A stretch of DNA of 64,000 nt from Haloferax mucosum ATCC BAA-1512 (GTDB taxonomy: Archaea > Halobacteriota > Halobacteria > Halobacteriales > Haloferacaceae): NCBI RefSeq assembly GCF_000337815.1, contig NZ_AOLN01000013.1, positions 124,001 through 188,000 on the forward strand, read 5' to 3'. Numbering within the stretch: position 1 is the stretch's first letter; every line of letters begins with the position of its first letter. The position numbers and the translations under genes were made by a program. The notes beneath the pieces are model-generated. The model searched no databases, was not told the DNA's origin, and worked only from the letters and a program-made list of their open reading frames with translations. This document shows, piece by piece, positions 30,609 to 35,077 of the stretch.

Positions 30609-32873
30609 TTATTGGAAGGTCCGCCCGACCTCGCCTTGGCGGTCGCGTTTGACGTCGCTCTTCTGGAAGCGCTCTTCGATCTCCTCGTAGCGGCGGCGGA
30701 CGTCGTCGGTGACGCTCGGGCCGATCTCGTCGAGGGCGTTCTCGAAGTGCTCCATCGTCACGCGAACGTTGCCGACGCTCTCTTCGATCTCCTCTTTCGT
30801 CACGCTCTGGATGAACTCGCGGGAGGCGTTCATCGACGCCTCGCGGGCGAGTGCTTCGATGTCTGCACCGACGTAGCCCTCGGTCTTCGACGCGATTGCA
30901 TCGAGTTCAACGTCGTCGGCGAGCGGCTTGCTCCGGGTGTGCACGTCGAGGATAGCGCGACGCGCGTCCTCGTCCGGCACGGGGACGTGGACGTGGCGGT
31001 CGAGACGACCCGGGCGCAGGAGCGCCGAGTCGATGAGGTCGGGCCGGTTCGTCGTCGCGATGACGACCACGTCTTCGAGTGCTTCGAGTCCGTCCAACTC
31101 GGTCAGGAGTTGCGAGACGACGCGCTCCGTGACGCCCGAACTCGTGGAGTCGCGGCCGCGTTCAGCCGCGATGGAGTCGATTTCGTCGAAGAACACGACC
31201 GTCGGCGCGTTCTCGCGGGCTTTCTTGAACACCTCGCGGACGCCCTTTTCGGACTCGCCGACGAACTTGTTCAGGAGTTCCGGTCCCTTGATGGAGATGA
31301 AGTTCGACTCGGCCTCGTTGGCGACGGCCTTGGCGAGAAGCGTCTTGCCGGTCCCCGGCGGGCCGTACATCAAGACGCCCTTCGCGGCGTCCATATCCAT
31401 CGTCTGGAAGACCTCGGGATATTCGAGCGGCCACTGGATGGTCTCGCGGAGGCGTTCCTTGGTGGTTCCGAGACCGCCGACGTCCTCCCACGTCACGTCG
31501 GGTACTTCGACGAACACCTCGCGGAGCGCGGATGGTTCGATGCTCTTGAGCGCCTCTTTGAAGTCGCTTTCAGTGACGCGGAGCGTCTCCAAGACCTCGG
31601 CATCTATCTCCTCGGCGTCGAGGTCGAGTTGCGGGCGGATGCGCCGAAGCGCGTGCATCGCCGACTCCTTGGCAAGAGATTCGAGGTCGGCACCGACGAA
31701 GCCGTGGGTGCTGTCGGCGTAGGCGTCGAGGTCGATATCGTCGGTCAGCGGCATGTTCCGCGTATGGACCTGCAGAATCTCCTTGCGGCCGTCGCGGTCG
31801 GGAACGCCGATTTCGATTTCGCGGTCGAAACGACCGCCGCGGCGGAGTGCCGTGTCGATAGCGTCCACGCGGTTCGTCGCGCCGATGACGACGACTTCGC
31901 CGCGTTCGTCCAGCCCGTCCATGAGCGAGAGCAGTTGGGCCACGACGCGGCGTTCGACGTCGCCGCCGGCCTCGCCGCGCTTGGGCGCGATAGAGTCGAG
32001 TTCGTCGATGAAGACGATTGCCGGTGAGTTCTCCGTGGCCTCCTCGAAGATTTCACGGAGTTGCTCTTCGGACTCACCGTAGTATTTCGACATGATCTCC
32101 GGACCGGAGATGGTGTGGAACGAGGCGTCGATTTCGTTGGCGACGGCTTTGGCGATGAGCGTCTTGCCGGTCCCCGGCGGGCCGTGCAGGAGCACGCCTT
32201 TCGGCGGTTCGATGCCGAGGCGCTTGAACAGTTCCGGGTGGCGCATCGGGAGTTCGATCATCTCCCGAACCTGTTCGAGTTCCTTGTCGAGACCGCCGAT
32301 GTCTTCGTAGGTCACCGAGGGACCGGTTCCACCGCCGGATGCGGCGTCTTTGATTTGCTCGGCGGGCTTTTGGCTCACTTGGAACTCGGTGTTGTCGGTG
32401 ACGACGACCGTCCCGTCAGGGTCGGTCGAGGCGATTTTGATGGGGACAGATTGGCTCGACGCGCTCATGAAGCCGAAGCCGAGCGGGAGCTGAATGCTCT
32501 GGCCCTGCGTGACGGGCTGTCCGGAGAGCTTATCGCGGATGTACGTCCCGATATTGCCGCCGATACGGAGGTTCTGCGGGAGCGCAATGGTGACCCGGTT
32601 CGCGGGTTTCACGTCCGCTTTTTCCACGTTGACGCGGTCGTCGATGCCGACGCCGGCCTGCTGTCGGAGCCGTCCGTCGATACGGATGATACCCGTCTCT
32701 TGGTCTTCGGGATAGCCCGGCCAGACCCGCGCGATTGCCGTGCCGTCGTTCGGTCCCTCGATACGGATGAAGTCGCCGCCTTCGAGGTCGAGTTGTGAGG
32801 CGGCGGCTCGGTCGATTGCGGCGAGTCCGCGGCCAGCGTCCTTCTGTTTGAGCGGTTTGACGATGAGTTTCAT
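30609..32873 (-). CDS. cdc48: Cdc48/p97/VCP-type AAA ATPase
   Basis: A 754-residue unfoldase that extracts or unfolds proteins for the proteasome and for remodelling. The N-domain (double-psi barrel, residues to about 190) is followed by two AAA modules, each with Walker A GPPGTGKT and Walker B (VFIDELDS and VFFDEIDS). Arginine-finger-region residues are visible in both modules ([23 protein letters not shown] and [21 protein letters not shown]). Its start directly abuts the Hsp20-like gene, so the pair is one operon behind a heat-shock-type operator. Confidence 0.97.
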
Positions 32874-33122
32874 TTACTTGTGGATGGTGATGGTGAGCAC
32901 GCCGTTTCGAACCTCCACGTCGGCGTCGCCTTCGGGGAGTTCGAACTCCGTCTCGGTCACGCGGTTGCCAGTGTCGGCGACGACGATGGCGGTCGAACCG
33001 ACGATATCGACGTCGATTTCGTCCGCCGTGAGAGCGACGTCGGCCGCGATGACCCAGCTGTCTTCGTATTCGTACCGGCGGGCGAAACGCTCGTCTCCAC
33101 CGGTGAACTGTTGCATGCTCAT
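32874..33122 (-). CDS. short Hsp20/alpha-crystallin-like protein (DUF7127-like)
   Basis: An 82-residue protein. The C-terminal half, EFELPEGDADVEVRNGVLTITIHK, follows the alpha-crystallin pattern of LP-acidic turn plus NGVLTI strand, and the first half is beta-rich. It is shorter than normal Hsp20 proteins and lacks the C-terminal IXI tail. The recalled haloarchaeal family name is DUF7127. It immediately precedes cdc48 with no spacer, so it is probably a chaperone partner or substrate holder. A start six bases downstream (MQQFTGG) is also possible. Confidence 0.75.
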   Translation of the reverse strand: MSMQQFTGGDERFARRYEYEDSWVIAADVALTADEIDVDIVGSTAIVVADTGNRVTETEFELPEGDADVEVRNGVLTITIHK

Positions 33123-33129
33123 GATGAGT

Positions 33130-33161
33130 CTAACCTCAGGTTAGCGTTTTAGTTATTTAAG
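33130..33161 (-). promoter_or_regulatory. heat-shock-type operator (CTAAC-N5-GTTAG) and TATA box of the hsp20-like/cdc48 operon
   Basis: CTAAC (33130-33134), CTCAG (33135-33139) and GTTAG (33140-33144) form a perfect palindrome with 7-bp arms around one central base. It matches exactly the CTAAC-N5-GTTAG site bound by the archaeal heat-shock regulator HSR1 of Archaeoglobus, which also sits before a cdc48/hsp20 operon. The minus-strand TATA box CTTAAATAA is at 33153-33161, so the palindrome lies between TATA and the start at 33122, a repressor position. Confidence 0.75.
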
Positions 33162-33368
33162 CTTTACTCTGGTTAATCGGGCGACGGTAGCGTATTGGTA
33201 TATTTCGGTTGAATTGCGGTTCACACCCATCACGCCTCACCATGTAGTTCTCACCGGAGTAACGTCAAACTAGTGGCTACACCAGTAACTCGGACTCGAC
33301 ACGCCGAGCAACCGAGAAAGTCGGCTACGGCGTGGGGCTTTATTCGCTCGGGGCGTACAAATCTCACC

Positions 33369-34190: not shown

Positions 34191-35000
34191 TCAGTACAAC
34201 TCGTCGAGGTCGTCTTCGACGTGACTGTGTTCTTCGGCCGGGAACTCGCCGGCTTCGACAGCATCTTTGTAGCCCTCGACGGCGTTTTCCATCTCGGATT
34301 TGACGTCGCCGAACGTGGTTGCGAACGGCGGAACGTGGTCGCTCATGCCGACAACGTCGTCGATGACGAGGACCTGTCCGTCACAGTCCGGCCCGGCACC
34401 GATGCCGATTGTCGGAATGTCGAGTGCTTCTGTGACCTGTTTTGCGACGTTCGCGGGGACGTGTTCGAGGACGAGCGAGAACGCGCCGGCCTCGACGTGC
34501 GCCTTCGCAAGGTCGAGGATTTCGCGGGCGGCGTCGCGGTCGGTCCCCTGTCTGCTGTAGCCGAGTTGCTTGACGCGCTGTGGCGTGAGTCCGAGGTGCG
34601 CCATCACCGGAATCCCGAGTTGCGAGAGTCGCTCGGTCAACTCGACGGTGTGCGGCCCGCTTTCGAGTTTGACCGCGTCGGCATCGGCTTCTTTCAGCAT
34701 CCGTCCGCAGTGTTCGATACTCGACGCCTCGTCTACGCCAAAGGAGAGAAACGGCATGTCGGCGACGACGAGAGCGTCGTCAGTCGCGCGCGCGACGGCG
34801 GCGGTTCGGCTCTGCATCTCTTCGACCGTGACCGGTAGCGTCGAGTCGTAGCCGAGTTCCGTGTTGCCCATGCTGTCGCCGACGAGAATCACGTCGATAC
34901 CGGCGTCATCGACGATTCGAGCCGTCGATGCGTCGTACGCCGTGAGCATCGTGATTGGCTCGTCTCCAGCCTTCGACCGAAGGGAACGTACCGTGACCAT
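34191..35000 (-). CDS. panB: 3-methyl-2-oxobutanoate hydroxymethyltransferase
   Basis: A 269-residue TIM-barrel enzyme that transfers a hydroxymethyl group to ketoisovalerate, the first step to pantothenate and coenzyme A. Signatures are ITMLTAYDASTARIVDDAGIDVILVGDSMGN (with the metal-binding Asp), MAHLGLTPQ and LVLEHVPANVAKQV with the catalytic Glu. The start MVTVRSLRSKAG at 35000 is chosen because an upstream extension (MRAGLDSSRK) is not family-like. It converges on the hydrolase gene. Confidence 0.96.
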   Translation of the reverse strand: MVTVRSLRSKAGDEPITMLTAYDASTARIVDDAGIDVILVGDSMGNTELGYDSTLPVTVEEMQSRTAAVARATDDALVVADMPFLSFGVDEASSIEHCGRMLKEADADAVKLESGPHTVELTERLSQLGIPVMAHLGLTPQRVKQLGYSRQGTDRDAAREILDLAKAHVEAGAFSLVLEHVPANVAKQVTEALDIPTIGIGAGPDCDGQVLVIDDVVGMSDHVPPFATTFGDVKSEMENAVEGYKDAVEAGEFPAEEHSHVEDDLDELY

Positions 35001-35077
35001 GCAGGCCGTTCGCACGTCCGGGTTATGAGCGTCACCCTTGCGGGACGAGTCCAAACCGGCACGCATTAGCCCCCGTC

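Follow-up and report, generated by a model that had tools for sequence, protein, structure and literature searches.

A Conserved Candidate HSR1 Operator at the DUF7127-cdc48 Operon of Haloferax mucosum and at a Haloarchaeal TFB Gene

Introduction

The heat-shock regulator HSR1 of Archaeoglobus fulgidus (AF1298) has the operator CTAAC-N5-GTTAG (Rohlin et al. 2005, as cited in PMC9133787), and the related Phr excludes RNA polymerase at its own site (PMC9133787). According to a 2022 review (PMC9133787), halophilic archaea had yielded no mechanism of this kind; their heat-shock model is directed by TFB and is drawn from TFB2 of Hfx. volcanii and from TFBb and hsp5 of Halobacterium (Lu et al. 2008, as cited in PMC9133787). 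In Methanonatronarchaeum, a relative of the haloarchaea, an HSR1-family protein and Cdc48 are both up at high temperature (PMC5852551).

The window analysed here, a stretch of 64,000 nucleotides from Haloferax mucosum ATCC BAA-1512, carries the palindrome CTAAC-N5-GTTAG in front of a small-chaperone-like gene and cdc48. Is this palindrome an operator in a haloarchaeon and, if so, which regulator would act on it?

The Operon and Its Promoter

Both genes lie on the minus strand. The first (32874–33122) encodes an 82-amino-acid DUF7127 protein (PF23444, E = 9.8e-47) and the second (30609–32873) a 754-amino-acid Cdc48 AAA+ ATPase (TIGR01243, 1041 bits), whose start codon directly adjoins the DUF7127 stop codon; the operon's nearest named relatives are those of Haloferax species. 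By sequence PF00011 gave no match to the DUF7127 protein, PF23444 being its sole domain match, and the top PDB match of its AF2 model (pLDDT 81) is the Hsp20.1 alpha-crystallin domain 4rzk (E = 1.9e-4, TM 0.70), from which an alpha-crystallin/Hsp20 fold is predicted. Because the predicted structure matches Hsp20 alpha-crystallin domains, "hsp20-like" is a fair label, and the hsp20-like/cdc48 pair named in the initial annotation is borne out by the 4rzk and TIGR01243 matches. The two kinds of gene targeted by HSR1 and Phr, a small-chaperone-like gene (DUF7127) and cdc48, are thus both present.

On the minus strand, a TATA-like box, CTTAAATA (33154–33161), is followed after 9 nt by the putative operator CTAACCTGAGGTTAG (33144–33130), which contains CTAAC-N5-GTTAG, and after a further 7 nt by the ATG at 33122. 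This site, read as CTAACCTCAGGTTAG on the plus strand at 33130–33144, has 7-bp arms around a 1-nt centre. The palindrome with its arms, the start codon at 33122, and the placement of the one between TATA box and the other are as the initial annotation had described them; the TATA box, which it had put at 33153–33161, is also present, but one base off that span. The A-rich AGTAAAG that immediately precedes the TATA box (33162–33168, minus strand) is probably a BRE, given the A/G-rich columns conserved in orthologous promoters. From the TATA spacing, transcription is predicted to start at about 33130–33131, inside the GTTAG half and 23–24 nt past the TATA box. An operator between TATA box and start codon is what would be expected of a member of an HSR1/Phr regulon, and its sequence, together with its conservation in orthologues, marks it as a predicted HSR1 dimer site. 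That CTAAC-N5-GTTAG is indeed the published HSR1 motif was confirmed in the literature (PMC9133787).

Conservation of the Palindrome

The genome-wide search for CTAAC-N5-GTTAG that the initial annotation had proposed returned one exact match to the 10-base pattern, compared with two for a reversed control pattern. Bare motif counts were rejected as evidence, the genome-wide counts being no higher than those of the control. A blind search for a TATA box, a 9-nt gap, and the operator with one mismatch allowed gave a different picture, with matches in 162 of 195 haloarchaeal genomes and in about six for the reversed control. Judged by these counts, the features that rise above chance are position and conservation, not mere occurrence.

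Orthologous DUF7127-cdc48 promoters were gathered across the order, and the operator is present in every one of the 132 that lie outside a single genus, g10, discussed below. The right half, GTTAG, is invariant in all 132, and in 128 of them 9 nt separate the TATA box from the operator. Left halves are CTAAC (92 promoters), CTTAC (18), ATTAC (16), ATAAC (3), and GTTAC (3). The position of GTTAG over the expected start site may explain its greater strictness. Only the five outer bases on each side are conserved, the columns between the half-sites and the leader being variable, and the two extra bases in each arm are peculiar to the H. mucosum genome. Protein identities within the set fall to about 32%–45%, and the conservation of the site is therefore not a matter of close relatedness. 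What looked like an ordinary palindrome turns out to be a putative operator, conserved throughout the order, for which a candidate regulator is now identified.

The HSR1 Orthologue

The initial annotation had supposed that an HSR1/Phr-type winged helix was encoded elsewhere in the genome and had suggested searching for an HSR1 homologue. The search found one full-length orthologue, in single copy and on another contig (G000:C8:14429–15079; 217 amino acids), adjoining a gene that we named by eye as phosphoglycerate mutase. It has both parts by which we define an HSR1 orthologue, an ArsR winged helix and a PF24270 C-terminal region, and its top match among solved structures is Pyrococcus Phr (2p4w, E = 1.9e-21); these matches place it in the Phr/HSR1 family of ArsR-type winged-helix proteins. 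A wide distribution in euryarchaea is on record for the family's arCOG01684. With its gene on contig C8 and the operon on C13, regulator and operon are unlinked, and the arrangement of an autoregulated operon containing its own regulator is not found here.

Regulators from outside the haloarchaea lead to the same protein. A profile built from eight proteins of family f21, which lies in the same phylum but outside the haloarchaea, found one strong homologue per haloarchaeal genome (E = 1e-40 to 1e-58), with other winged-helix proteins scoring far below it, and f21 (SPKAVIDHLRKLEEAG) and haloarchaea (APKVVIEHLEKLEKAG) have almost identical recognition-helix regions. With haloarchaeal members added to the profile, 389 of the 391 haloarchaeal genomes that are at least 90% complete yielded an HSR1 match, always with E = 1e-55 or better.

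About 50 promoters of HSR1 genes were read. A recognisable site resembling CTAAC-N5-GTkAA stands just before the start codon in about seven, and those of Haloferax have no recognisable operator. Autoregulation was rejected as a general feature, the sites being weak and limited to certain lineages; in haloarchaea it would be a remnant at best.

Joint Loss in One Genus

The two genomes of the 391 in which the profile search found no HSR1 (G168 and G360) both belong to genus g10. In all five g10 genomes searched, one of them only 73% complete, HSR1 is missing, and the best matches (1e-5 to 1e-9) cover the wing domain only; in seven genomes from six sister genera HSR1 scores 1e-85 to 1e-95. Where the operator would stand, with the distance to the TATA box unchanged, all five g10 genomes have CTATT-N5-AATAG, CTATT-N5-AGTAG, or CTATT-N5-AACAG. 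We considered CTATT-N5-AATAG in G168 as an operator of new specificity and rejected it: its congeners have CTATT-N5-AGTAG or AACAG, so that the symmetry is lost and the changed site looks like decay. Presence of regulator and presence of operator therefore coincide, g10 being the sole lineage with neither. This co-loss is one evolutionary event, strong evidence but not a statistic.

Upstream of DUF7127-cdc48 there is a panB-like gene, which we named by eye as ketopantoate hydroxymethyltransferase, in the window (34191–35066, minus strand) as well as in g10 (L203:5870–6676, minus strand); the neighbourhood is therefore retained even where operator and HSR1 are gone.

The Operator on Other Genes

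The same site is found before hsp20 and cdc48 where these are not joined to DUF7127. In the deep families f9 and f11, which have no DUF7127, the operator precedes hsp20 and cdc48 separately. It lies between TATA box and hsp20 start codon in G009 and G025 (PF00011 E = 1.5e-10 and 2.3e-13) and, before a gene with a weaker Hsp20 match, in G011; cdc48 of G025 has it in this same place as well. The ancestral pair therefore keeps the site even when its genes are separated. In f21, which we take from its operons to be Archaeoglobaceae, the palindrome heads a gene cluster that encodes, in order, an ArsR-type winged-helix protein, Cdc48, and Hsp20, and it also precedes a lone hsp20. This gene order, HSR1-cdc48-hsp20, is the published HSR1 arrangement (PMC9133787).

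A second kind of target is a gene for the general transcription factor TFB (TFIIB). Promoter-embedded operators with the same TATA spacing precede TFB genes in families f1, f4, f10, f12, and f17 (loci L282, L302, L310, L330, L331, L333, L336, L338, L346, and others). Nearly all of about 27 further promoter-embedded sites read in haloarchaea lie before TFB, the exceptions being L337 and L344. The main group of operator-bearing TFBs is about 65%–94% identical, and there is a second, more distant subgroup. The Haloferax TFB site is CTTAC-N5-GTAAG. In the window's genome, where the TFB gene was located by synteny with G192, the operator lies at L411:17124–17138 (C1, about 57.13 kb), 9 nt after CTTATATC and before a 92%-identical TFB. 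Within the 1.18 Mb of this genome that were read, no operator other than those of DUF7127 and TFB is preceded by a TATA box at 9 nt, and the control pattern with the TATA spacing does not occur. The recurrence before TFB suggests that HSR1 governs a general transcription factor as well as the chaperone operon.

Published expression data touch on both targets: tfb2 of Hfx. volcanii rises up to 8-fold on heating (PMC2121645), and tfbG and cdc48b rise 2.4-fold and 5.6-fold in the Halobacterium heat shock (PMC1971269), although each of these genes may or may not be the operator-bearing copy.

Two irregular sites were seen near TFB genes. In L411 a second operator-like site, CTAACTGGACGTAAG, lies about 136 bp further upstream than the TFB operator; we rejected it as a further operator since it is absent in relatives. 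In L280 (G009:C11:17709) an operator-like site lies upstream, not downstream, of the TFB TATA box, possibly by chance or for activation.

Proposed Mechanism and Alternatives

We consider it highly probable that the palindrome is the operator of the haloarchaeal HSR1 orthologue, which would repress DUF7127-cdc48 until heat or protein damage occurs, with TFB as a second tier. Bound to CTAAC-N5-GTTAG, an HSR1 dimer would occupy the stretch from TATA box to start site and keep RNA polymerase from being recruited, so that the DUF7127 small-chaperone-like gene and cdc48 would be kept low; heat, or unfolded or damaged protein, would release it. At the TFB operator the same release would free a general transcription factor as well, forming a second, amplifying tier. 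HSR1 might then be the master of a two-tier cascade, in which it represses the small-chaperone/cdc48 operon and TFB, and the freed TFB activates the operator-less promoters of hsp5 and the thermosome. We rate the chances of this larger scheme as even; if it holds, a bacterial-type repressor gates a eukaryote-type general transcription factor.

The orthologue might bind the operator and yet respond mainly to a signal other than heat (salt, redox, or general proteotoxic stress), or act as an activator at some promoters. Haloarchaea are exposed to salt and redox stress, the hsp genes of Halobacterium are also salinity-responsive (PMC1971269), and a redox regulator, SurR, belongs to arCOG01684 too (PMC9426492). 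Phr and HSR1 are nevertheless heat regulators, the targets are their classic pair of hsp20-like gene and cdc48, and the site follows the TATA box, a position from which repressors act. We judge this version unlikely.

That a different unlinked regulator, another ArsR or TrmB protein, binds the site and HSR1 is incidental seems very improbable: haloarchaeal genomes do encode many winged-helix proteins, but the motif is exactly that of HSR1, stands directly before HSR1 itself in f21 genomes, and is missing in g10, the only genus where HSR1 is missing too. There is less still to be said for a core-promoter or leader element (an initiator or translation signal), which would suit a GTTAG that never varies at the expected start site beside a left half that does, but hardly a sequence that is palindromic, precedes unrelated genes (hsp20, cdc48, TFB) with leaders of differing length, occurs in distant thermophiles, is lost only together with HSR1, and keeps its symmetry in the CTTAC-N5-GTAAG sites of Haloferax-type TFB.

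Relation to Known Systems

The proposed HSR1 switch shares its operator, an orthologous regulator, and the kinds of target (hsp20-like and cdc48) with A. fulgidus. It differs in that the regulator gene is unlinked, that HSR1 mostly lacks a clear autoregulatory site, whereas that of A. fulgidus is autoregulated, that in most families a DUF7127 protein takes the place of hsp20, and that a TFB gene is added as a target. With Phr of Pyrococcus furiosus it would share the protein family (2p4w), small heat-shock protein and AAA+ ATPase targets, and binding at the start site, whereas the Phr site, TTTA/TGGTAA/AAAA (PMC9133787), is not the haloarchaeal palindrome. Like the TFB-directed model, it involves a heat-induced TFB and chaperone genes in haloarchaea; in that model, as PMC9133787 recounts it, hsp5 needs no more than its core promoter, and no step upstream of the TFB is named. 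The operator on the TFB promoter could be the missing step upstream of the heat-shock TFB.

Operator, regulator family, and the pairing of small heat-shock protein with cdc48 were already known from A. fulgidus. What appears to be new, as far as the literature consulted shows, is the putative haloarchaeal pair of operator and regulator, a regulator that is unlinked and mostly not autoregulated, the co-loss, and the candidate TFB target. The initial annotation had missed both the second target, TFB, and the fact that HSR1 usually has no clear autoregulatory site. Haloarchaea thus gain a testable candidate for the heat-shock switch they were said to lack, with operator, regulator gene, and two target genes named in Haloferax, a genus with good genetics, and with g10 as a natural double loss. 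The TFB operator, a candidate answer to how the heat-shock TFB is induced, is the most valuable lead.

Variation in HSR1 and an Isolated Site

In family f9 (L184 in G009, L187 in G025) HSR1 has 162–182 amino acids and no C-terminal part, the operators still being kept. In the HSR1 of some other lineages (L189, L190, L191, and L192) a long, mostly acidic insert of about 40–60 amino acids separates the winged helix from the C-terminal region. One of the exceptions among the promoter-embedded sites, L344 (G153:C12:313256), is an operator-like site with one mismatch, 3 nt before a 71-amino-acid open reading frame that is ribbon-helix-helix-like; a similar site occurs in G076.
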